51,610 nt of DNA from positions 1 through 51,610 of the IMG/VR virus record IMGVR_UViG_3300022744_000037; one strand, 5' to 3'. Within the stretch, counting starts at the first letter, position 1. The number at the start of each line of letters is the position of its first letter. The translations under genes were made by a program, and so were the position numbers. The notes beneath the pieces are model-generated. The model did no database searches, was not told the DNA's origin, and saw nothing but the letters and a program-made list of their open reading frames with translations. This DNA is from a virus. This document shows, piece by piece, positions 2,220 through 48,527 of this stretch.

Positions 2220-2554
2220 GTAGTTAGCCGGCTGACCGAAGTCAGTGGTCGCAGTTGGGTCAGGCACACGGTGGTGGCGAAGTCCTCCGTAGTTGACTGG
2301 TAGAAGTACGCTTTTCGGCGGCTGCCGTAGCCGTTGCCGTTGCCGTAGCCGTTGCCGTCGCCTCTGCCGTGGCCGTTGCCTCTGCCGTTGCCGTTGCTGT
2401 AGCCGTCGCCTCTGCCGTTGCCGTTGCTGTAGCCGTTGCCGTTGCTGTAGCCGTTGCCGTTGCCGTAGCCGTTGCCGTTGCCGTTGCCGTAGCCGTTGCC
2501 GTTGCCGTTGCCGCCGCCGCCGCCGTTGCCGCGTGCACAGAGAAGGACGCTCAT
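2216..2554 (-). CDS. Gly-rich small protein, DFxTTxxLxxLRPL family, member A
   Basis: 112 residues: MSVLL start, a Gly-X tract (mostly GN, GY, GR, GD) at about 9-77, then GSRRKAYFYQSTTEDFATTV and a C-terminal LTQLRPL. Six window proteins share this C-terminal motif or a variant. The start overlaps the stop of member B in ATGA, so translation is probably coupled. The DNA is mosaic: the segment coding KAYFYQSTTE matches members C and D, while the last part (2245-2284) matches member B in 39 of 40 positions. Low-complexity reading frames on the other strand and in other frames are shadows, because only this frame has the coupled start and conserved ends. Function unknown. Confidence 0.75.
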   Translation of the reverse strand: MSVLLCARGNGGGGGNGNGNGYGNGNGNGYGNGNGYSNGNGYSNGNGRGDGYSNGNGRGNGHGRGDGNGYGNGNGYGSRRKAYFYQSTTEDFATTVCLTQLRPLTSVSRLTT

Positions 2555-2814
2555 AGCCGTAGCTCCGCGAGTGGTCGCAGTTGGGTCAGGTACACGGTGG
2601 TGGCGAAGTCGTGGGATATGGCTGGGAAGTGCTTGGCGTTGCGCGAGGTTCCGCTGCCTACACCTCCCCCATAGAGGTCGCCGTTCACCCGGACTGTGTG
2701 ACGGCTCCGGCCGTCACCGTCGCCTTTGTCTCGGGTGTACCCACCGCCCGCGCCGTCACCATCGCCGAAGCCTACGGCCCCGTCACCGTAACCGTTCTGG
2801 TGGAGGACTGTCAC
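2551..2814 (-). CDS. Gly-rich small protein, DFxTTxxLxxLRPL family, member B
   Basis: 87 residues from a GTG at 2814 that overlaps the TGA of the upstream gene (GTGA). This start is chosen over an upstream in-frame ATG because it reproduces the family N-terminus (M-T-V-L) and the NTGA coupling of members A, C and D. The body is Gly/Asp-rich (GYGDG, GFGDGDG) without a perfect repeat, and the end reads SHDFATTVYLTQLRPLAE. It is followed by member A with an ATGA overlap. Function unknown. Confidence 0.7.
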   Translation of the reverse strand: MTVLHQNGYGDGAVGFGDGDGAGGGYTRDKGDGDGRSRHTVRVNGDLYGGGVGSGTSRNAKHFPAISHDFATTVYLTQLRPLAELRL

Positions 2815-3116
2815 ACCACACAGCGGATCTGCATGATGACCGCGTGGAAGGGGACTTCGGTGTACCCGCAAGGGTCCAGCACGATGTCTTTGGTTGGGCC
2901 ATCCAGGGCGATCTCGCCCAGGCCCATCGTGGTGCCCCACGAACGGATCACGTTGCCTTCATAGAGGACCATAAGGTCGCCTTGACGCTCAACGTAACCG
3001 ATAACCACCCAGCCGCTCTCGATCACAACGATCTTCTTGATGGCGGTGCGGGGAACAGTCTGGTCGTCCGAAGTCAGGCCGGCGGTTGCCAGTTCGGTGT
3101 TGGTCTTGTTGCTCAT
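2811..3116 (-). CDS. Conserved phage protein of unknown function
   Basis: 101 residues, MSNKTNTELATAGLTSDD start. The middle is beta-rich with ESGWVVIGYVERQGDLMVL, then a conserved-looking WGTTMGLGEIALDGPT and PCGYTEVPFHAVI. I recognise the style of a small conserved phage protein but cannot name a function. The start ATG has an upstream AGGAAGT. It leads the B-A pair, to which it is coupled by a GTGA overlap. Confidence 0.75.
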   Translation of the reverse strand: MSNKTNTELATAGLTSDDQTVPRTAIKKIVVIESGWVVIGYVERQGDLMVLYEGNVIRSWGTTMGLGEIALDGPTKDIVLDPCGYTEVPFHAVIMQIRCVV

Positions 3117-3255
3117 TTGGGTACTTCCTGAATTGCTGGTAAAACACCGCGACGCCGAGTGTCGCGGAACAAACGCACATGGCTAGAACCATGAGTGCGT
3201 ACTTATAAGCGGACTCGGCCCGCTGTTCAATCTTGGCGTGTTGTTTATCGCGCAC
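2989..3255 (-). CDS. Possible small membrane protein overlapping its neighbour
   Basis: A GTG-started frame of 88 codons with one strong hydrophobic segment, YALMVLAMCVCSATLGVAVF. The membrane segment lies in the otherwise empty 128-bp gap between two genes, but the last 43 codons overlap the 101-residue gene in another frame. The GTG overlaps the end of the preceding gene by about 10 bp. No ATG start and a weak ribosome site; it may be a chance frame. Confidence 0.3.
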   Translation of the reverse strand: MRDKQHAKIEQRAESAYKYALMVLAMCVCSATLGVAVFYQQFRKYPNEQQDQHRTGNRRPDFGRPDCSPHRHQEDRCDRERLGGYRLR

Positions 3256-3439
3256 TGTATGGCGAATATCTTTTGTGGGTCGTAACCCAGTCCCGAAGTT
3301 TTCGGTACTCGTCAGGGTGCCCTTGTACGCTCTGAAGAAACACGTCGCTACACTCATTCAGCCGTGCGGTTTGCCGCATGGCCCGCAGACGCATTTGATG
3401 TTCTTCGCGCTTTTCGGCGCGGTTGAGTTTCTTTTTCAT
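3245..3439 (-). CDS. Small basic protein of unknown function
   Basis: 64 residues, MKKKLNRAEKREEHQMRL start, strongly charged and probably helical. Its ATG overlaps the TGA of member C in ATGA, which supports real translation as the next cistron of that operon. No recognisable domain. Confidence 0.55.
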   Translation of the reverse strand: MKKKLNRAEKREEHQMRLRAMRQTARLNECSDVFLQSVQGHPDEYRKLRDWVTTHKRYSPYSAR

Positions 3440-3771
3440 GTGATCTCCGTGAGCGGCCGGAGCCGCGCTAGTTGGATAGTCTCAGTGAAGTCCTCCGTAG
3501 TTGACTGGTAGAAGTACGCTTTTCGGCGGCTGCCGTTGCCGTAGCCATTGCCTCTGCCGTCACCGTCACCGTCGCCGTAGCCGTTGCCGTTGCCGTTGCC
3601 TCTGCCGTTGCCTCTGCCGTAGCCGTAGCCGTAGCCGCCGCCGTTGCCGTCGCCGTTGCCGTTGCCTCTGCCGTAGCCGTAGCCGTAGCCGTAGCCGCCG
3701 TTGCCGTCGCCGTCGCCGTCGCCGTAGCCGTAGCCGTTGCCTCGGCCCCGTTTCTCTAAGAGGACAGTCAT
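3436..3771 (-). CDS. Gly-rich small protein, DFxTTxxLxxLRPL family, member C
   Basis: 111 residues: MTVLLEKRGRGNG start, about 70 residues of Gly-X (GN, GY, GD, GR), then GSRRKAYFYQSTTEDF and a C-terminal LARLRPLTE. It is almost the same protein as member D except for tract length: the pair shares exact DNA blocks of 38 bp at the 5' end and 92 bp at the 3' end, while the tract between is about 70 residues here and about 9 in D. The ATG overlaps the stop of D, and its own stop overlaps the next start. Function unknown. Confidence 0.75.
   Translation of the reverse strand: MTVLLEKRGRGNGYGYGDGDGDGNGGYGYGYGYGRGNGNGDGNGGGYGYGYGRGNGRGNGNGNGYGDGDGDGRGNGYGNGSRRKAYFYQSTTEDFTETIQLARLRPLTEIT
3445..3536. 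repeat. 92-bp exact direct repeat, copy 1
   Basis: Identical to 3780-3871. It encodes the conserved C-terminal half of member C. A 50-bp part of it also recurs at 2279-2328 in member A. Confidence 0.9.
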
Positions 3772-3923
3772 TGCCGTAGCTCCGTGAGCGGCCGGAGCCG
3801 CGCTAGTTGGATAGTCTCAGTGAAGTCCTCCGTAGTTGACTGGTAGAAGTACGCTTTTCGGCGGCTGCCGTAGCCGTTGCCGTTGCCGTTGCCTCGGCCC
3901 CGTTTCTCTAAGAGGACAGTCAA
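3768..3923 (-). CDS. Gly-rich small protein, DFxTTxxLxxLRPL family, member D (TTG start)
   Basis: 51 residues from a TTG at 3923 overlapping the TGA of the upstream gene (TTGA). The start is chosen because the following codons are identical to those after the ATG of member C. It contains only GNGNGNGYG where C has about 70 tract residues, then the same conserved end. The stop overlaps the start of C in ATGA. It is either the contracted product of a C-D duplication or the ancestor of an expanded C. A TTG start with a near-twin ATG gene suggests lower expression. Confidence 0.65.
   Translation of the reverse strand: MTVLLEKRGRGNGNGNGYGSRRKAYFYQSTTEDFTETIQLARLRPLTELRQ
3780..3871. repeat. 92-bp exact direct repeat, copy 2
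   Basis: Identical to 3445-3536; encodes the conserved C-terminal half of member D. Recombination between the copies would delete one gene cleanly in frame. Confidence 0.9.
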
Positions 3924-33522: not shown

Positions 33523-36500
33523 ATGCCGACGATCGACGAAATCCGCTCCGCTGCCCCATGGACCCAGGGGCTCTCTGATGTTGAAATCCTCGATCACGCG
33601 GCCAAGATGACCGGCCAGCCTCTCGAGGCTGTAGCGGCGGACTTCGGCGTCAAGCTCAACCAGACGCGCAATCCCCTGGCGGTCGCCAACGACACGGTGA
33701 TCGAAGCGGTTAACGCGGGTGTGGGTGGAATCAAAGCCGTGGGGGACTTTGTTTCCCCTGGCAACTCCATGTCCCAGGGCATCGCAGGGCTCATGCGCCA
33801 AGGTGAGCGCTCACAGTCTCTGCCGGTTCAATACCAGAAACACCTCCTCAATCAAGCCCTGGATTCGGGTAGCGTGGGTGAGGAGTTGAAAGGCGTCGGC
33901 CGGTACGTCGTCAACAACCCACTCCTTTCCGCGGCCCAGGCCGCCGGCAACATAGCCGTACCCGGCGCAGCCATTAAGGGCGCTCGCGGCGCTGCTGGGT
34001 TGATGCGCCTTGGTGATCAGGCCATAGCTCGCGCGGGCATAGGCACCAGCATGGGCGTAAGTGCCGCAATGGGCGGCGGCGACGCAGCGGGCGACGCTTA
34101 CGACGCCGTAATGAATTCCCAAGCACTGGCAGACGTACCCCTCGCGCAGCGCCAGATCATGGCCACTGACGCGGCCCGCAAAGCCAGCGTCGTTCCTGCT
34201 GCTATCGGCGCGTTCACCGGTCGCGTAGGTGCGGAGGGAGCCCTGGCTCGTAACGTTTCCAAGGGCGTACTCAAGACGGCCGGCGAGGAGTTTCTGTCCG
34301 AAGGTTTTGAGGAAGGCGCTACCAAGCTGTCGGCCAACCTCGCCGCGAGCCAATACGACCCGTCAATCCAAGCGTTCAAAGGGGTTGCAGGTGCGTCGGC
34401 CCTCGGTGGCGTCATGGGCGCTGGCACTGGTGCTGCTACAGCCGTGGGGCTCCGCCAACCTAAGAGCCTGCTCCCCGGCGCGAACCCGAACGCGGTCAAC
34501 ACGGACGGCACGCAGAACACCGCAGTGCCTCAGTTGGGCTACAACCCTAATGCGGGCGCCATGACCGTGTTCCCTGACGGATCGGTAGCTACCAGTGAAG
34601 AAGCAGCGTTCCAGCGTCGGTATGCGCCCCAGTCGTCTGATGGCAGTTTTGATTATGCCCCTGTAGGGTTTCCGAAGCAGTACCCGGAAGCACCCTACAA
34701 CTACCAGAACGCCGTTCCGTGGGAACCGACCCATGTGTTGCCTGGGGCAACTCCTACGCAAGCAAACCAAACCCAGGTGCCACTGATGTCAGGGCAGCCG
34801 GATATGTTCGACCCCCTCCACGATCAAGCCAACGGGCCTGCGATGGTGGAGCAAGAATCGGCTCCGGTTGAACAGGATACGCAAACTCTGCCGTTGTTCC
34901 ACAACGCTCGTGATGCTGAGATCACTGCGGTACTGCGCAACGCCAACGGCGGAAGAGCCAACAAAAACTTGCTTACGTTCGCGCAGCGGTTCAAGCAGGC
35001 GATGAACGACCCGCAGCAGCTCGAGGACTTGCTGGCAAACACCAAATTGGTGTCCGGCGACGTAGTTGAGAAGGCCGCCGAGCTGGCGGAGATTTACCGC
35101 AGCCAGGCTCTACAGATGATGCGCGACCGCAACTCTGAGAGCGCGGAACCCACGACCACCCTGGCAGATCAGATCGCGGAACCCACGACCACCCTGGCAG
35201 ATCAGATCGCGGACACGGACGCCCGCGTTGCTGGTGCAGAACAACAGCGGGCCCAAGCGGAGCGACTCGACATTCTGAACCGAGTGCTCGACGACCCAAC
35301 TACGAAGAACCCCGCCGCGCGGTTCCAGGCTGCGTTGCGCAAGCTAGGGTACACCAACACAGTGGTCAGCGAGCAAGAGCTGGCCCGCATCCAGCGACAC
35401 GAAGACATCCGTACTGCGCTCGCTGACACCGTGGAGCACACGCCCAATGAGATGGATGTGGAATCGTTGGTGCCTGAAAAGAAGGTCAAGGTTGTTGCGC
35501 CCGCGCCCACAGCCAAACGCGGAAACCCACTGACCAACCCGGCGTACTTTGAGCTTACGAAGTCCCCTGGCCCAATGGACGTTGCCGCAATCGAGCGCGC
35601 TGAAGCCAAGCGAGACCGGAAAGCCGCCACGCAGGCTGAATCCGAGGCGCCCGCGCCCACTGCCAAGGGGCAAGGTGAGTTGTTCACCAAACGCGGTGAA
35701 CCCACAGCTAAGGCTGACTGGCAACGCCAGCAAGCGAAAGCCGAAAACAAAGCTGCACCCGCCGCCAAGCCGGCTACTAAGCCTGCACCAACAAAGAAGG
35801 GACCCGATGCCGCCGCCAAGACTCAGGACACTCGAAAGAAAGCAAGCCCGCCGACAACGACGGAAACTACGAATGAAGACCTTACGAGCAACGTCACCGA
35901 GAGCCCTGAACAGCAACGTGAGCGCCTCACCGGCCGGCTCAACAAACTGATCTCTGGCAAGACGGCCCTGGATCTTCAGGACGAGGCGGCCATCGCCGAC
36001 GCGATTGAACGTGGTGATTTCGACGAGGCCAAGGCCAAGCTGCATGACGTTGAGACCGCAATCCGCGAGCGTCGCTACCGCACTCAGGCCCAGGCGGCAC
36101 CGGCCAACGCCATCAGCCATTCTGCGCTTGAGCGCATCGTCGCCAGCATCGAACGCGCCCTGGGCGGGCATGTCAGCGTCGCCATCATGGATGACGTAAC
36201 GCAGTTCGACCCCAAGCAACGCCCAGGCTCCCGTGCCGGTGTGATGGATCGCGGCAACATCATTCTGTTCCGTAGCGGCATCGCCAGCGGCATCGAAGGT
36301 CAGAAAACGATCTTCCACGAGCTGTTCCACAAGGGGCTGCGCAAACTGCTGTCCCCCGGTGAGTACACAGGCACGCTCAATCGGCTGTACAACAGCAGCG
36401 CCGAGATCCGCGCGATGGCCGACGCGTACCTGAACAGCGCAACCGGCAAAGCTGACACCGCCGGCATGAACACGGCCGACGCCCGCGCCCTGGCGGTTGA

Positions 36501-39500
36501 CGAAGCCCTGGCCGAACGAGCTGAAACCCTGGACCTCAAGCCTAACACAATCCGTCAGATGGGTAACTGGTTGGCCGACGTTGCCGATCGCCTGGGGCTG
36601 AAACAACTCGCACAGTGGCTGCGCTCGGCGCCCATGTCACAACTGGACACATTCATCCGGGACACGATGATGGCCGGTATGCAGGTCAGCATAAACTCAG
36701 GAACCAACTTCCGCCCTGGCACCAGTGCCTTCGATCGCTGGCTCGGCAACTACGACCCGACGAACCCCGACATCCGTTATCGCACCGTCACTGAAGCCCG
36801 CGAGTCCATGGCGGACGTTCTCAAGTACGACGTGCTGGATCGGATGCGCCGTGGCAAGCTGGGGTTCGCGTTCCTTCGCAACATCGCGGAGAAGTACCAG
36901 GGCAAGCTGGCGAGCGTGGCTCCCCACGTCAAGTCTGTGCTGTCCATGGGCGCAACTGCCGAGGCGTACCGCGACAGCGCTTTGAAGGTCCAGGACGCCC
37001 TGGACGCCCTGCCCGCAGCGCACCTGAAGCAAGTCACCGAGCTGATGGCCGACGCCACCGTGGCCAACGTAGCAATCGAGGGCACCAACGCTCACTTGGC
37101 TCCCAAGGAACGGGTAGCCGCCCAGGCGCTCAAGGACCGCTTCGACGTGTTGACCTCACAGCAGAAGACCGCGTACCGGCTCGCCCGCGACACCGCCAAG
37201 AAGTTCTGGGCTGACCGCGCCGAGCTGATCAAGGCCACCTCCAACTCGATCTACAAGCCGCTGCTCGACGATGCCCGCGCCGCAGGCGACACCAAGAAGG
37301 TCAAAGTCCTTGAGCGCGAGTTGAACGCCTACTTGGCTGAGACCGATCGACTGCTCAACAGTTTGTCCGGTGATTACTTCCCGCTGCTGCGCCACGGTGA
37401 CTGGCTGGTGGTGCGCAAGTCCAAAGAGTTCACGGATCTCCAGAAGCAGCGCGATGCCGCCTTCGACCACCTGAACACTCTGCTGGACAAGTACGAAGTT
37501 CCACGAGACCGGACTCAAGCCAAGCAAATCCGCGCGTACAACAAGAAGCTGGAGAAGGCCGGCGAGGAGCCCCTGGGTAACTTCACGCCGGAGCAGGCCG
37601 AGGAGATCAAGCAGGCGCGCAGCGAGTACCACAAGCTCGAGTCCGAGCTGGAGGCCATGAAGGGCAAGGAAGGCCATTACTACGTGGCCGCCTACGAACG
37701 CAAGTCCGAGGCCGTGGCTGATCAACGCAACAACGGCGGCGAGCTGTCACTCAAGCAAGACCACCACCGCGAGCTGAACCCCATCACTCGGGCCGCCCTG
37801 GGCCGCCTGGAGGAGTCGATGGCTGCCACCATGCGTGGAGCCGGTAACGTGGAGGCGCTACGTGACGCCAAGCGAGCCATGTATCAGATTTTCCTGACGC
37901 AGCTCCCCGACCGCTCGGCGATGAAGCGCGAAGCCAAACGTAAAAACGTCGCTGGTTTTGACCGCGACATGAAGCGCAACATGGCCCAGTCGATGATGAC
38001 GGACTCGTTCTACCTGTCTCGTCTCAAGCACATGGACGACGTGATGGGTACGCTGAACGCGGTGCGCACTGAAGCCCGTGAGAGCGGCGACGCGCATCTG
38101 CAGGAGGTCGGTGAGGAACTCGCCCGCCGCCAAGCCAAGTCCATGGAGTTCGTTGATACCCCACTGCAAGACAAGGCCAGCGCCTGGACGTACTTCGCAA
38201 CCTTGGGGGCCTCACCCGGCTTCCTGCTGTCGAACATGCTCCAGCCTTTCATGGTATCCGCGCCCATGCTGATGGCTCGCCACTCGGGCAGCATCTCCGC
38301 CATGGGTAAAGCCTGGGCTGAAGTGGCTGCGCTCACCAAGTCATCGCTGGGCACCAACAAACGCGGCGAGATCCGCTACACCGACGCCCCCTTCACCCCT
38401 GGTGAGAAGGTCATGTTGGACGCGCTGAAGGCGCAACGACTCATCACCACGACGCTGACCCACGATCTGACCACGATCGCCGACGGCGGCAAGGCTGCCA
38501 AGTGGGCCCAACGCGTCGCGGCGCCCGGCCACTACATCGAAGTGCTGAACCGCATGAGCACCGCCCTGGCGGCCTACCGCCTGGAGCTGGCCAAGACTGG
38601 CAACGAAGCCATGGCGCAAAGCTACGCCGAACGCGTGCTGGCCGACACCCACTTCGACTACTCGACGGAGAACTCACCCTACTGGATGAAGCCCGGTGCG
38701 GTGCCCGTGGGCAAGCTGCTGTTCCAGTTCAAGAAGTACCAAGCGGCCATGATCGCGCTGTACGCTAAGAACATCTCCCACGCACTCAAGGGTGAAACCC
38801 CTGAAGTACGCCGTGAAGCCCGTCGCACGCTCCTGGGGCTGTTCGCCACCACTGGCGCAATGGCTGGCTCCTTCGGTCTGCCGGGTATGGGTGCGGTCAT
38901 GATGGTGGCCAACCTGATCGCCAAGGCGTTCGGGGACGATGACGATGAACCGTTCGACGCGGAAGTGGAGTACCGCAACTGGTTGGTTGATGTGGTCGGC
39001 GACAAGACTGTCGCGGACGTTCTGGTCAAGGGGCTGCCGACGCTGCTGGGCGCTGACCTCTCCAAGAAAATTGGTTCGGGCGACTTGATCCCGAACCCTG
39101 ACGTGGGCAACTCCAAGAACTCCCGCGACGCCTACAAAGAGCTGCTCGCCAGCTCGGCCGGTCCGTTCCTGGGGGGCATCCTCCCCCGCTGGTTCGACGG
39201 CGTGGACTTCATGATGAAGGGCGACGTGACCCGCGCGGCGGAGTCGTTCCTGCCGAAGATGCTGGCTGATCCGGTGAAGGCTTGGCGCTTTGGTAACGAT
39301 GGGGTGACGACCCGCCGCGGCAACGTCATGGTTGGCGCTGACGAGCTGTCTTCGTGGGATCTGTTCCTCCAGGCTTCCGGTGTTACCCCCATGGAAATGT
39401 CCGATGCCTACGACGCCCGCAACGCGATCGAGAACCGCAAGCAGGCCATCAGCTCCAGGGCTCAGACTTTCAAAGAGCAGTGGGCCACCGCTTTCAACAA

Positions 39501-39714
39501 GGGCGACACCGACAAGACATCCTCGCTCCAGGATCGACTGGCCAAGCTCAACGAGTCGCGCACAGCGAGCGGGTTCAAGCCTATCACCTACAGCGAACTG
39601 CTCAAGGCGGCCAAGACCCAGCAGGACGTGAACCGCAGCTACCAGACGACTGGCGGGGCGGTCGGCAAGAACGCGAAGCTGGCAGAGCAGGCTCGGTTTG
39701 CGCAAGAGGAATAA
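33523..39714 (+). CDS. 2063-residue polyvalent internal virion protein with zincin domain
   Basis: The N-terminus (1-300) is helical and Ala/Gly-rich, with hydrophobic stretches that could insert in membrane. A low-complexity Pro/Lys/Thr linker covers about 600-800. A metallopeptidase-like domain follows with HELFH (H932, E933, H936) and a downstream acidic helix, ALAVDEALAERAE. Residues about 1300-1500 are long charged helices. About 1540-1900 resembles the large polyvalent-protein domain LPD38 (AWTYFATLGASPGFLLSNML). Such proteins are carried in the head and enter the cell with the DNA. The exact order is inferred by eye. Confidence 0.8.
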   Translation: MPTIDEIRSAAPWTQGLSDVEILDHAAKMTGQPLEAVAADFGVKLNQTRNPLAVANDTVIEAVNAGVGGIKAVGDFVSPGNSMSQGIAGLMRQGERSQSLPVQYQKHLLNQALDSGSVGEELKGVGRYVVNNPLLSAAQAAGNIAVPGAAIKGARGAAGLMRLGDQAIARAGIGTSMGVSAAMGGGDAAGDAYDAVMNSQALADVPLAQRQIMATDAARKASVVPAAIGAFTGRVGAEGALARNVSKGVLKTAGEEFLSEGFEEGATKLSANLAASQYDPSIQAFKGVAGASALGGVMGAGTGAATAVGLRQPKSLLPGANPNAVNTDGTQNTAVPQLGYNPNAGAMTVFPDGSVATSEEAAFQRRYAPQSSDGSFDYAPVGFPKQYPEAPYNYQNAVPWEPTHVLPGATPTQANQTQVPLMSGQPDMFDPLHDQANGPAMVEQESAPVEQDTQTLPLFHNARDAEITAVLRNANGGRANKNLLTFAQRFKQAMNDPQQLEDLLANTKLVSGDVVEKAAELAEIYRSQALQMMRDRNSESAEPTTTLADQIAEPTTTLADQIADTDARVAGAEQQRAQAERLDILNRVLDDPTTKNPAARFQAALRKLGYTNTVVSEQELARIQRHEDIRTALADTVEHTPNEMDVESLVPEKKVKVVAPAPTAKRGNPLTNPAYFELTKSPGPMDVAAIERAEAKRDRKAATQAESEAPAPTAKGQGELFTKRGEPTAKADWQRQQAKAENKAAPAAKPATKPAPTKKGPDAAAKTQDTRKKASPPTTTETTNEDLTSNVTESPEQQRERLTGRLNKLISGKTALDLQDEAAIADAIERGDFDEAKAKLHDVETAIRERRYRTQAQAAPANAISHSALERIVASIERALGGHVSVAIMDDVTQFDPKQRPGSRAGVMDRGNIILFRSGIASGIEGQKTIFHELFHKGLRKLLSPGEYTGTLNRLYNSSAEIRAMADAYLNSATGKADTAGMNTADARALAVDEALAERAETLDLKPNTIRQMGNWLADVADRLGLKQLAQWLRSAPMSQLDTFIRDTMMAGMQVSINSGTNFRPGTSAFDRWLGNYDPTNPDIRYRTVTEARESMADVLKYDVLDRMRRGKLGFAFLRNIAEKYQGKLASVAPHVKSVLSMGATAEAYRDSALKVQDALDALPAAHLKQVTELMADATVANVAIEGTNAHLAPKERVAAQALKDRFDVLTSQQKTAYRLARDTAKKFWADRAELIKATSNSIYKPLLDDARAAGDTKKVKVLERELNAYLAETDRLLNSLSGDYFPLLRHGDWLVVRKSKEFTDLQKQRDAAFDHLNTLLDKYEVPRDRTQAKQIRAYNKKLEKAGEEPLGNFTPEQAEEIKQARSEYHKLESELEAMKGKEGHYYVAAYERKSEAVADQRNNGGELSLKQDHHRELNPITRAALGRLEESMAATMRGAGNVEALRDAKRAMYQIFLTQLPDRSAMKREAKRKNVAGFDRDMKRNMAQSMMTDSFYLSRLKHMDDVMGTLNAVRTEARESGDAHLQEVGEELARRQAKSMEFVDTPLQDKASAWTYFATLGASPGFLLSNMLQPFMVSAPMLMARHSGSISAMGKAWAEVAALTKSSLGTNKRGEIRYTDAPFTPGEKVMLDALKAQRLITTTLTHDLTTIADGGKAAKWAQRVAAPGHYIEVLNRMSTALAAYRLELAKTGNEAMAQSYAERVLADTHFDYSTENSPYWMKPGAVPVGKLLFQFKKYQAAMIALYAKNISHALKGETPEVRREARRTLLGLFATTGAMAGSFGLPGMGAVMMVANLIAKAFGDDDDEPFDAEVEYRNWLVDVVGDKTVADVLVKGLPTLLGADLSKKIGSGDLIPNPDVGNSKNSRDAYKELLASSAGPFLGGILPRWFDGVDFMMKGDVTRAAESFLPKMLADPVKAWRFGNDGVTTRRGNVMVGADELSSWDLFLQASGVTPMEMSDAYDARNAIENRKQAISSRAQTFKEQWATAFNKGDTDKTSSLQDRLAKLNESRTASGFKPITYSELLKAAKTQQDVNRSYQTTGGAVGKNAKLAEQARFAQEE
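35143..35212 (+). repeat. 33-bp exact tandem repeat in the polyvalent gene
   Basis: Two copies (35143 and 35176) encode AEPTTTLADQI twice. In-frame; likely a recent duplication in a linker. Confidence 0.85.
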
Positions 39715-45163: not shown

Positions 45164-46723
45164 TCAGTTGTCTCTCATTTCACTTTTTATCAAGTCTAAC
45201 AGAACGCCTTGCATTTCTCCGCGGTGTTCTAAGCGATTGTACATCTTCCGTTCTACATTACTACCCTCCAAATGAATGATGTGCTGGTGCAATGTTTGCC
45301 CCTGACGGGTGATTCGGCCGCACGCCTGCTCGTAGACGGAATAGTCATTCGTTGGTATGTACCAAGTGATGACGTTCGCCCTCGTTAGCGTGAGCCCGTG
45401 GGCCATACACTTCGGGTGAGCTACTAACACCTGGAGCCCGTTAGCAGTGTTCTGGAACTGGCTGAAGATCGTGTCACGTTCGGCCTTCGGGGTCTCCCCG
45501 TGGACCACGCCCACTTCATACCCATCGGCGCGGAGTTCTTCCGCGATCCGCTCCAAGCCGCCTGTCAGTGGTACATAGACAATCACTTTTCCATCGGCAG
45601 ACTCAATGATCTCTTTGACTGCAGCGATCCGCTCCGGGGTGGGGAGAATCATCCGGCCACCGTCGTCTTGGTACGCCACGCCACACGCCACTTGGACGAG
45701 CTTCATGGTCTTGACCGCCTCGTTGATTGCAGTCACTTGTCCGCCCTCAAACTCCGCCCGCAGCGAACGCACCATGTCCTCGTAAGCCTTCTTCTGTTCA
45801 GTGCTCATCTCCACATGGCGGGTGGAGAACGTGCAAGGCGGCAAGTCCAGGCACTCCTCGCGCTTGAACAGGATCGACGGCTGCATCGCCTCTTTGACGA
45901 TGTGCGCCGCGTTGTCCCTGGGGGCCCACTTGAACTGGTTGATCTGGCGCATCACGAGGTCACGGAACCTCGAGAAATACTTGGGCACCTTGTCTGGTGC
46001 GATCAGCCGGCACTGCGCCCAGGCGTCCGTGGGAGCCTTCGGCGTCGGAGAACCTGTCATGCCCCACACCCAGCGGCGGCTGGTGCAGAGGGAGTTGAGC
46101 GCCTTCCAGCGATCGGTGCTGGAGTTACGGAACTCAGCCAGCTCATCCACGATCACCGCGTCGATGTCGTCGCGGGCCTTGAGGTCGTCCAGTAGAACTT
46201 TCACCCCGTCGTGGTTGATGATGTACACGTCCACGTCTTGGGCCAGCAGCTTCTGCCGCTTGGCTTTCGACCCATGGAGCACAGCGCACTCCAGATGAGG
46301 GAAGTGGTTGAAGATTTCATCAGCCCACACTCGGTCCAGGGTGGACAGGGGGGACACCACCAACACCTTACGGCACAGGCCTGCTTTGCGAAGGTAGTCC
46401 ACCGCCCACAGCACCGAGAGGGTCTTGCCGGAGCCGATCTGGTTCAGAACGAACGCACGACTGTGCATCGTCAGAAACTCAGCCGTCACAGCTTGGTGCT
46501 CGAACGGCTTGTAGCGCCCAGACCACTCGTAGTAGTGGCGGATCGGGAAGGGCACCTTAAAGCCAATGTTGTTGAGGACTTTGACTTCCTCGTCCTTGTG
46601 CGGGACCGCCACCAGGGTACGACCCTTGTAAACGAACGTCTTGGCTGTAGGAATAATCGTGGTGATCCGCTCAGGGTCGCGGCTGTTGATCACCACCTTG
46701 CGGTGTTTCTTAGAGATCAGCAT
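45164..46723 (-). CDS. SF2 (SNF2/DEAD-like) helicase
   Basis: 519 residues. Motif I is NQIGSGKT (94-101), motif II is IVDEL (about 195), GSPTPKAP is motif III-like and QACGRITRQGQ (about 470) is motif VI. A short N-terminal extension precedes the ATPase core. It may act in replication start or remodel DNA. Last gene before the 45134 promoter, overlapping the upstream gene by 7 bp. Confidence 0.88.
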   Translation of the reverse strand: MLISKKHRKVVINSRDPERITTIIPTAKTFVYKGRTLVAVPHKDEEVKVLNNIGFKVPFPIRHYYEWSGRYKPFEHQAVTAEFLTMHSRAFVLNQIGSGKTLSVLWAVDYLRKAGLCRKVLVVSPLSTLDRVWADEIFNHFPHLECAVLHGSKAKRQKLLAQDVDVYIINHDGVKVLLDDLKARDDIDAVIVDELAEFRNSSTDRWKALNSLCTSRRWVWGMTGSPTPKAPTDAWAQCRLIAPDKVPKYFSRFRDLVMRQINQFKWAPRDNAAHIVKEAMQPSILFKREECLDLPPCTFSTRHVEMSTEQKKAYEDMVRSLRAEFEGGQVTAINEAVKTMKLVQVACGVAYQDDGGRMILPTPERIAAVKEIIESADGKVIVYVPLTGGLERIAEELRADGYEVGVVHGETPKAERDTIFSQFQNTANGLQVLVAHPKCMAHGLTLTRANVITWYIPTNDYSVYEQACGRITRQGQTLHQHIIHLEGSNVERKMYNRLEHRGEMQGVLLDLIKSEMRDN

Positions 46724-46989
46724 TGCAGAAAATTAACCATGGCTCGCGCCGATTCTTCGTTGTGGAACGGGCCATAGACTTCAGCCTCGCCGGAAGCCCA
46801 CCACACCACGTAATACTCGCGGCTAACAAACGGCCACTTCCAGGCCCACACCCGTTTATAGAACAAGATCATAGTCGGAACCCGTCCATCGTAAAACCTC
46901 CACAGCTCTTGCGGCGTCTCCGCCATTCGGGACAGGAGTGCCTTTGACCCCCACGACTCTGCGGTTTGGTAGAACTCCCACTTCGTCAT
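46717..46989 (-). CDS. Small protein of unknown function
   Basis: 90 residues, Trp-rich (WAWKWPFVSREYYVVWWASG, then YGPFHNEESARAMVNF). ATGA overlap with the previous gene and 7-bp overlap with the helicase. No family named. Confidence 0.6.
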   Translation of the reverse strand: MTKWEFYQTAESWGSKALLSRMAETPQELWRFYDGRVPTMILFYKRVWAWKWPFVSREYYVVWWASGEAEVYGPFHNEESARAMVNFLQC

Positions 46990-47237
46990 ACCGACATCCT
47001 CATCGCCACCGAGATGGCTTGGATGTGCTGCCGAAATCGCTCTGGGTCCGAAGTATCAATCGCAGGGATCTTGAACAAAATCGGGTCCTCCTTCGGCTCC
47101 TTGGTGCGCACCAGTGCCACCAGCAGTACGTCCCTAACGAGGTCCTCGCGGGTCCGTACCTGGAACCCGTTTCTGTGAGCGGGACCTATCAGCTCGAGCC
47201 GGAGCTGGTCCTCCGCGCTCCAATGAATAATAGCCAT
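46986..47237 (-). CDS. Small protein next to attP
   Basis: 83 residues, MAIIHWSAEDQLRLELIGPA start, basic, partly helical (DLVRDVLLVALVRTKEP). The operon entry lies just beyond the attP; no clear promoter is seen. Overlaps its follower by ATGA. Confidence 0.6.
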   Translation of the reverse strand: MAIIHWSAEDQLRLELIGPAHRNGFQVRTREDLVRDVLLVALVRTKEPKEDPILFKIPAIDTSDPERFRQHIQAISVAMRMSV

Positions 47238-47273
47238 GCGAACCCGGCCTTTCTGTCGTACTACAAACTGTTA

Positions 47274-47279
47274 TATAAT
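47274..47279 (+). promoter_or_regulatory. -10 element upstream of the tRNA half
   Basis: TATAAT, 11 nt before the 5' end of the tRNA-Asn half, in plus orientation. The -35 is poor. It may drive the rebuilt tRNA gene after integration. Confidence 0.5.
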
Positions 47280-47289
47280 GCGCTCCGAT

Positions 47290-47333
47290 TCCCCGATAGC
47301 TCAGTTGGTAGAGCGACGGACTGTTAATCCGTA
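47290..47333 (+). other. attP core: 5' half of tRNA-Asn(GTT)
   Basis: The sequence from TCCCCGATAGCTCAGTTGGT through the anticodon stem-loop (GTT at 47323-47325) to position about 45 matches the 5' half of a bacterial tRNA-Asn; the expected 3' half is absent. It lies against the 3' end of the integrase gene, the usual place for attP. The phage probably recombines within this identity region and leaves a rebuilt tRNA whose 5' half is phage DNA. Not an intact tRNA gene. Confidence 0.8.
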
Positions 47334-48151
47334 CCTCGCAGGACATTATCTATTGTCCTGGACGATTCCATCAAATGCCCCACTTTTAGGTGGGCGTATC
47401 GACGAACCATCTGTACCGATTTCCAGCCGCCCATTTCCTGGAGCGCGTACATCTGCACCCCTGCCTGAGCCAGCCACGAAGCCCATGTGTGCCTCGTCGC
47501 ATCGTGCCACCGGAACCCCACTATCCCTGCCCGCTTCAAGGCGTCCTGCCATGCCCTGGTGTTGACGTTGCGCACCGGCTTGCCGCAGTAGGTGAAGACC
47601 CACCGGTGGTGCTTGCCTATCTGCTTCGTCAGGACGGACATGGCCACGTCGTTCAGTGGGACCCCGAGGGGCTCACCGTTCTTCGTGTCGGGCACATACA
47701 GCGCCCTGGCGTCCATGTCCACCCAATCCCATTGCATATGCTTGACGTTGCCCTGGCGTAGACCGGTGGCGAGTGCGAAAAGGAACATATCCGCGGCGTG
47801 CGGTTGCAGCTCCTGAATCAGTCGCTGCACCTGTTCTTTCGTCAAGCTCCGAATTCTCCGCTTGGGCTCCGGGTACGTCTTGAGCGCTGGCATCGCGTCC
47901 AACCACCCCCACTCTCGTTGCGCGGCTCGCATGATCGCTCGGATGAGCGCCACATACCGGTTACGGGTGGCAGGGGTGTTCTTCTGCTCTACCACTTTTC
48001 GCACCATGTCTCGGGTGATGTCCCTGAGGCGGCGACCTTCAAGATGCGGGCCCAACCAATCCAGCTTTGCCCTGTCGCCACGGATGTCTGCCTTCTCACT
48101 GCGTTCATCCAACCACTTCTGTGCTGCTTCTTCCCACCGGTAGGTTTCCAT
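47324..48151 (-). CDS. int: Tyrosine integrase
   Basis: 275 residues. Catalytic set: R132 (ATGLRQG), K157 (TKNG), H216 and R220 (WHDATRHT), W243 at the His/Trp position, Y252 (VRRYAHL). The N-terminal region (1-100) is a SAM-like core-binding domain. AGGAGCC precedes the ATG. Its TAA stop lies in the tRNA anticodon, so the last codons are part of the attP identity region. It directs site-specific integration into the host tRNA-Asn gene. Confidence 0.93.
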   Translation of the reverse strand: METYRWEEAAQKWLDERSEKADIRGDRAKLDWLGPHLEGRRLRDITRDMVRKVVEQKNTPATRNRYVALIRAIMRAAQREWGWLDAMPALKTYPEPKRRIRSLTKEQVQRLIQELQPHAADMFLFALATGLRQGNVKHMQWDWVDMDARALYVPDTKNGEPLGVPLNDVAMSVLTKQIGKHHRWVFTYCGKPVRNVNTRAWQDALKRAGIVGFRWHDATRHTWASWLAQAGVQMYALQEMGGWKSVQMVRRYAHLKVGHLMESSRTIDNVLRGTD

Positions 48152-48191: not shown

Positions 48192-48527
48192 TCAAAGTCC
48201 GTTCGCTTTGAAGTAGGCCCGCACGTCTTCCGCGCTGGCGGCCAGGATGTAGTGCCCGCCGGCCATCTCGATTTCGCGCTGGCGGTCCTTTTGGTTGGTG
48301 GACTGCTCGCCCTTGGGGGCTTTGGCCTCGATGGCCACGGGAGTCAGCTTGTAGAACCCCACGAAGTCGGGGATGCCGTTGACACCCATGGGTCCCATCT
48401 TGATCGGCATGTACATCCACCCAGTGATCACTTCCGGCGCTTGCTTGGCGCCGGCGAACCACACGCCCTTGGAGGTGAGGAACTTCTTGATGTCGTCCTT
48501 CACCACGCCCTCGGGGGTGCGTGCCAT
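48192..48527 (-). CDS. VRR-NUC endonuclease
   Basis: 111 residues. GIPDFVGFYKLTPVAIEAKA (catalytic D and E-x-K) followed by QKDRQREIEMAGGHYILAAS is the VRR-NUC (PD-D/E-XK) signature. Such small phage enzymes are thought to cut branched DNA. TGATG overlap with the next gene upstream. Confidence 0.88.
   Translation of the reverse strand: MARTPEGVVKDDIKKFLTSKGVWFAGAKQAPEVITGWMYMPIKMGPMGVNGIPDFVGFYKLTPVAIEAKAPKGEQSTNQKDRQREIEMAGGHYILAASAEDVRAYFKANGL

Follow-up and report, generated by a model that had tools for sequence, protein, structure and literature searches.

A phage attP carrying the 5′ half of tRNA-Asn and a −10 element beside a P22/SfV-type integrase gene

Genetic elements that integrate into tRNA genes rarely replace the 5′ part of their target. 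In the Islander collection 3760 islands have a 3′ tDNA fragment and 159 a 5′ fragment (159/3919, PMC4383910), and bacterial tRNAs rebuilt upon integration are, with very few exceptions, expressed from their original promoter (PMC8371274). Archaeal integrases of the pTN3 type make use of the 5′ half, and expression then comes from the integrase promoter, an arrangement that bacteria rarely show (PMC8371274). T7-like cyanophages have attPs that correspond to the first half of tRNA-Leu, and their integration has been detected by PCR (PMC8776855). A 5′-half attP with a phage-borne −10 element is therefore an uncommon arrangement but one already documented.

Here we describe a site of this type in viral DNA of 51,610 bases, the whole of which is referred to as the window. 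We consider, with a probability of roughly 70%, that it is an attP of the uncommon 5′-half class and that integration would rebuild tRNA-Asn from the phage −10 element and 5′ half. The closest parallel is provided by the cyanophages P-SSP7 and S-TIP37 (PMC8776855), where attP also lies downstream of a tyrosine integrase gene and carries, behind a −10-like box, the first half of a host tRNA. These differ from the window in the tRNA (tRNA-Leu), in the kind of phage and in the placement of the box, which ends 19–20 nt upstream as opposed to 10, and in P-SSP7 the integrase gene and half-tRNA are codirectional and followed by an RNA polymerase gene. With the pTN3/TKV4-type archaeal integrases (PMC8371274, PMC5495485) the element likewise supplies the 5′ half and the rebuilt tRNA is parted from its original promoter, but the element is an archaeal plasmid, the target is tRNA-Leu and integration disrupts the integrase gene itself. 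The P22/SfV-type phages share with the window the integrase family, a core in the anticodon arm, the position of attP by the 3′ end of the integrase gene (int) and the convergence of int with the tRNA; their attPs, by contrast, hold the 3′ half, and the host promoter stays in control. The 5′-fragment islands of Islander, compared here as a statistical class and not by individual members, are alike in that a new 5′ part, brought by the element, takes the place of the displaced one (PMC4383910). In phages with tRNA-dependent lysogeny (PMC10865867) the tRNA supply of the lysogen also depends on phage DNA, but those phages rely on a complete tRNA gene of their own and have a short core, where the window phage would rebuild the host tRNA.

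The half-tRNA and the upstream box

The half-tRNA reads TCCCCGATAGCTCAGTTGGTAGAGCGACGGACTGTTAATCCGTA and corresponds to positions 1–44 of tRNA-Asn(GTT) (Table 1). It is the sole Rfam match at gathering level in the window (RF00005, 30.5 bits), ARAGORN identifies no complete tRNA there and no matching 3′ half of tRNA-Asn occurs elsewhere in the window. The 44-nt block exactly matches host tRNA-Asn genes in two Burkholderiaceae genomes (L007 and L008). These are the only two genomes of the genome-contig collection with the exact 44-mer, a Burkholderiaceae MAG and Ca. Vallotia tarda, in both cases as the start of a complete tRNA-Asn, and this likeness to Burkholderiaceae tRNA-Asn is the one pointer to the host. 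An exact search of the genome contigs with the promoter plus tRNA start gave no match. An exact 27-mer gave five matches in the viral contigs, four being complete tRNA-Asn genes and one broken by the contig end, none of them a comparable attP.

The attP carries the 5′ part of the tRNA through the anticodon arm without the 3′ part, and the integrase gene not only adjoins the fragment but has its stop codon (TAA, 47324–47326) inside the anticodon loop. The preliminary description of this DNA had proposed an attP with the 5′ half of tRNA-Asn instead of the usual 3′ half, preceded by TATAAT. The exact host match, the Rfam match, the lack of a 3′ half in the window, the adjoining tyrosine integrase and the presence of the hexamer all agree with that proposal. 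Its stated extent, through the anticodon loop, is correct in including the loop, but the block is slightly longer and takes in the whole anticodon arm to position 44.

Table 1. Features at and around attP; positions refer to the window.
Feature	Position	Strand	Basis
Best-placed but poor −35, TTCTGT	47251..47256	+	Promoter score; hosts mostly have TTGACA or a close variant there
TATAAT −10 element	47274..47279	+	Sequence; box and spacing as in host tRNA-Asn genes; −10 score tied best in genome
GC-rich discriminator, GCGCTCCGAT	47280..47289	+	Resembles host tRNA-Asn leaders; compare L280, L281, L300
tRNA-Asn(GTT) 5′ half, attP identity block with host attB	47290..47333	+	Exact host match; Rfam
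Likely crossover region, anticodon arm (ACTGTTAATCCGTA)	47320..47333	+	Overlap with 3′ blocks of relatives
Tyrosine integrase, P22/SfV type, 275 aa	47324..48151	-	PF00589, E=3.3e-30
VRR-NUC endonuclease, phage DNA right of integrase	48192..48527	-	
83-aa ORF across attP from int, same leftward block	46986..47237	-	Gene order as between VRR-NUC and SNF2 helicase in RHph_TM3_14A
SNF2-type helicase, phage DNA left of attP	45164..46723	-	phrog_62, E=3.5e-104; 42% to phages RHph_TM3_14A and Rollin

The TATAAT hexamer ends 10 nt upstream of tRNA position 1 and is one of two in the window, counting both strands (expected 2.25). By our own arithmetic the chance of its lying in the right orientation no more than about 20 nt from the start of the tRNA is roughly 4e-4. 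Similarity between the window and Burkholderiales hosts starts near this box in the best matches (query 33–35, which is 47272–47274), L280 matching at 93% over query 34–92 and L281 at 95% over query 35–92 (47273/47274–47331). Most host tRNA-Asn genes that we read, these being best matches and hence selected for likeness, have TATAAT or a variant some 9–15 nt ahead of the tRNA, followed by a GC-rich discriminator; their usual −35 is TTGACA or a close variant. In the window the −10 box and discriminator are present, with a poor −35 separated from the box by a 17 nt spacer. The combined −35/−10 score of 11.3, a rough value given that the promoter matrices are general consensus frequencies, ranks 13 of 103,128 genome positions yet falls under the host median of 14.0. 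A consensus promoter scan requiring at least 4 of 6 matches per hexamer does not list this putative promoter. The simplest reading of the host-like box, spacing and discriminator is that they belong to a captured host segment, which would run from the −10 element to position 44. The putative attP promoter may be weak on account of its −35.

A comparable box is evident in the cyanophages. Viral contigs were scanned for the first half of tRNA-Leu and 80 loci were read (L172–L251, T7-like cyanophage contigs), of which 69 lack the 3′ part by a simple test; a few of the 69, L213 and L219 among them, look like complete genes missed by that test and were omitted from the count of boxes. At the GGGAG-type sites the motif TANA[AC]T ends 19 or 20 nt before the tRNA in all 40 distinct upstream sequences, compared with an average of 0.8 and at most 5 when these are shuffled, although the motif was picked after viewing the sequences and the 40 sites represent related phages, not independent events. 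The occurrence of a −10-like box at 40 of 40 cyanophage half-tRNA sites is a new observation. The cyanophage box may also serve the RNA polymerase gene, which in P-SSP7 lies downstream of the half-tRNA in the same direction. The box in the window points against the gene block, so that this confounding effect of a downstream gene is removed.

The integrase and the crossover

The integrase shares 39–42% identity with those of SfV, Aaphi23, Edno5 and HK75, most of the top matches spanning more than 95% of the length, and up to 54% with Burkholderiales prophage integrases, a sequence relationship that places it in the P22/SfV-type family. Relatives with E ≤ 1e-45 are present in 62 of 399 sampled Burkholderiales genomes. 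At the loci inspected a complete tRNA (Thr, Lys, Asn, Arg, Phe and others) usually lies just past the 3′ end of int and faces it, which is what an element that brings the 3′ half should produce. Free SfV-type attPs (the thrW and Arg sites) match the tRNA from position 31 or 32 to the 3′ end, the mirror image of the block described here, and integrated copies have a complete tRNA gene; the picture in L014 and others is similar. None of the integrase relatives inspected showed a 5′-half site. In the viral contigs a single-sequence query returned no close relatives, and an alignment query returned 80 more distant ones, among which no 5′-half site was seen. In one contig (L023, 2320–2380) the stop codon of an integrase relative (52%) directly adjoins the 3′ half of a tRNA-Phe located on the same strand, and the contig ends just after; the core adjoins int, with the tRNA orientation opposite to that in most relatives.

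The window block (positions 1–44) and the blocks of the relatives (31/32–76) share the anticodon arm, and on the basis of this overlap with the attPs of relatives the crossover is likely to occur in that arm of the host tRNA-Asn gene. On this reading the phage holds a host-derived stretch that begins at the −10 box of tRNA-Asn, ends at position 44 and is joined to the 3′ end of its int gene, and strand exchange by the integrase would take place in that arm of the host gene. The geometry of such a crossover dictates a rebuilt tRNA consisting of the phage −10 element and 5′ half together with the host 3′ half. At one prophage end the phage part would thereby join the host 3′ half (GGTCCCTGGTTCGAGCC...) to give an intact tRNA-Asn, which would equal the L007 tRNA, a sequence that folds as a cloverleaf. 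The other end would retain the host promoter and 5′ half, now directed at the int gene and yielding no tRNA. Thanks to the captured −10 element and discriminator, transcription of the rebuilt tRNA would continue, presumably in constitutive fashion, and a viable lysogen would be expected. No other tRNA is available in the window to complement a disrupted gene. Among the genomes searched we found no lysogen, attL or attR.

The alternative best able to account for these data, though we judge it unlikely, is that the site is a relic: host DNA was acquired through an aberrant excision, deletion removed the tail of the integrase, the spacer and the 3′ half of the tRNA, and the site or the integrase fell into disuse. 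The HxxR motif of the integrase reads HDATRH(T) (window 47500–47540, minus strand), a one-residue insertion with respect to HDLRH(T). With a motif pattern that allowed up to four residues, 46 of 46 matches in relatives read HD(L/I)RH and the insertion is absent. The spacing of this motif sets the protein apart from the P22/SfV family, its membership of which stands by overall sequence, and the insertion may have impaired the enzyme, the activity of which is in doubt. An integrase tail that ends early, with the stop inside the tRNA, a promoter without a good −35 and the lack of lysogens are likewise compatible with a relic. However, the integrase frame is intact over 275 aa, the −10 box has been retained, and 44 nt are still identical to hosts where drift would erode such a match.

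It is also conceivable, but improbable, that the box is a promoter of the free phage, driving RNA antisense to the int mRNA and so limiting integration, with the tRNA half serving as core only. The −10 element does point right, into the antisense strand of int and against the leftward gene block. Nevertheless, the element matches a host tRNA-Asn promoter in position, discriminator and homology, and a −10 box is also retained at the cyanophage half-tRNA sites, although in P-SSP7 fragment and int run in the same direction.

Phage genes on both sides

The leftward block that contains the site comprises, in order, DNA polymerase, exonuclease, HNH (a weak match), VRR-NUC, int, attP, two small ORFs, SNF2 helicase and primase. 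The order in Rhizobium phage RHph_TM3_14A matches: polymerase, exonuclease, VRR-NUC, a pair of small ORFs, then SNF2 helicase; its annotation lists no integrase at the corresponding spot. Identities to the RHph_TM3_14A proteins are 34% for VRR-NUC and 38% for the exonuclease; the one small ORF that was compared has no similarity. Sister phages identified by the helicase (40 loci, up to 55%) carry no related integrase in the fetched stretch. Elsewhere the window includes a long GCCGTTGCC-type repeat array with 12- and 18-nt steps, in two blocks (2231–3922), and an ORF of 2063 aa (33523–39714, plus strand). The carrier phage is podovirus-like.

Since there is phage DNA on both flanks the site is an attP and not a host junction. 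The 60-nt block is of host type, and the half-gene with its −10 element might accordingly be host DNA at a prophage junction or in a chimeric assembly, but we regard this as very unlikely and set it aside because the phage genes on both sides form one leftward block, syntenic with RHph_TM3_14A. Scarcely credible is tRNA-dependent lysogeny, where the host tRNA is lost on integration and replaced by one that the phage encodes: it is known in actinobacteriophages (PMC10865867), and the layout in roseophage CRP-810 is similar, but the core here is long and would rebuild the tRNA, and the explanation was rejected as a complete phage tRNA gene of the same isotype is absent from the window.

Consequences for the lysogen

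The preliminary description held that the rebuilt tRNA gene would be transcribed from phage DNA and that the phage would in consequence control an essential host tRNA. The first statement follows from geometry, which yields a phage-derived −10 element and 5′ half provided that the crossover is in the anticodon arm; the genomes searched yielded no prophage junction. The second goes too far. The −10 element and discriminator resemble a captured host tRNA promoter, the −35 is poor and no regulation is visible, and control by the phage would be a matter of interpretation. Some hosts possess more than one copy of tRNA-Asn, and the tRNA at a given locus is therefore not necessarily essential.

A broader idea, which we regard as doubtful, is that phages with int and attP located inside a lytic block have switched repeatedly to 5′-half attPs bearing a −10 element of their own. 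The tRNA of the lysogen would then rely on a phage promoter, host survival would be tied to the state of the prophage, and the box conserved in 40 of 40 cyanophage sites and the independently captured one in the window would both be instances of a single rule.

Most elements that occupy tRNA genes leave transcription to the host promoter. In the present case that promoter would be lost, and the fitness of a lysogen would depend on the promoter borne by the phage. The site provides a second bacterial phage setting, now with a P22/SfV-type integrase, in which to ask whether half-tRNA attPs need a promoter.
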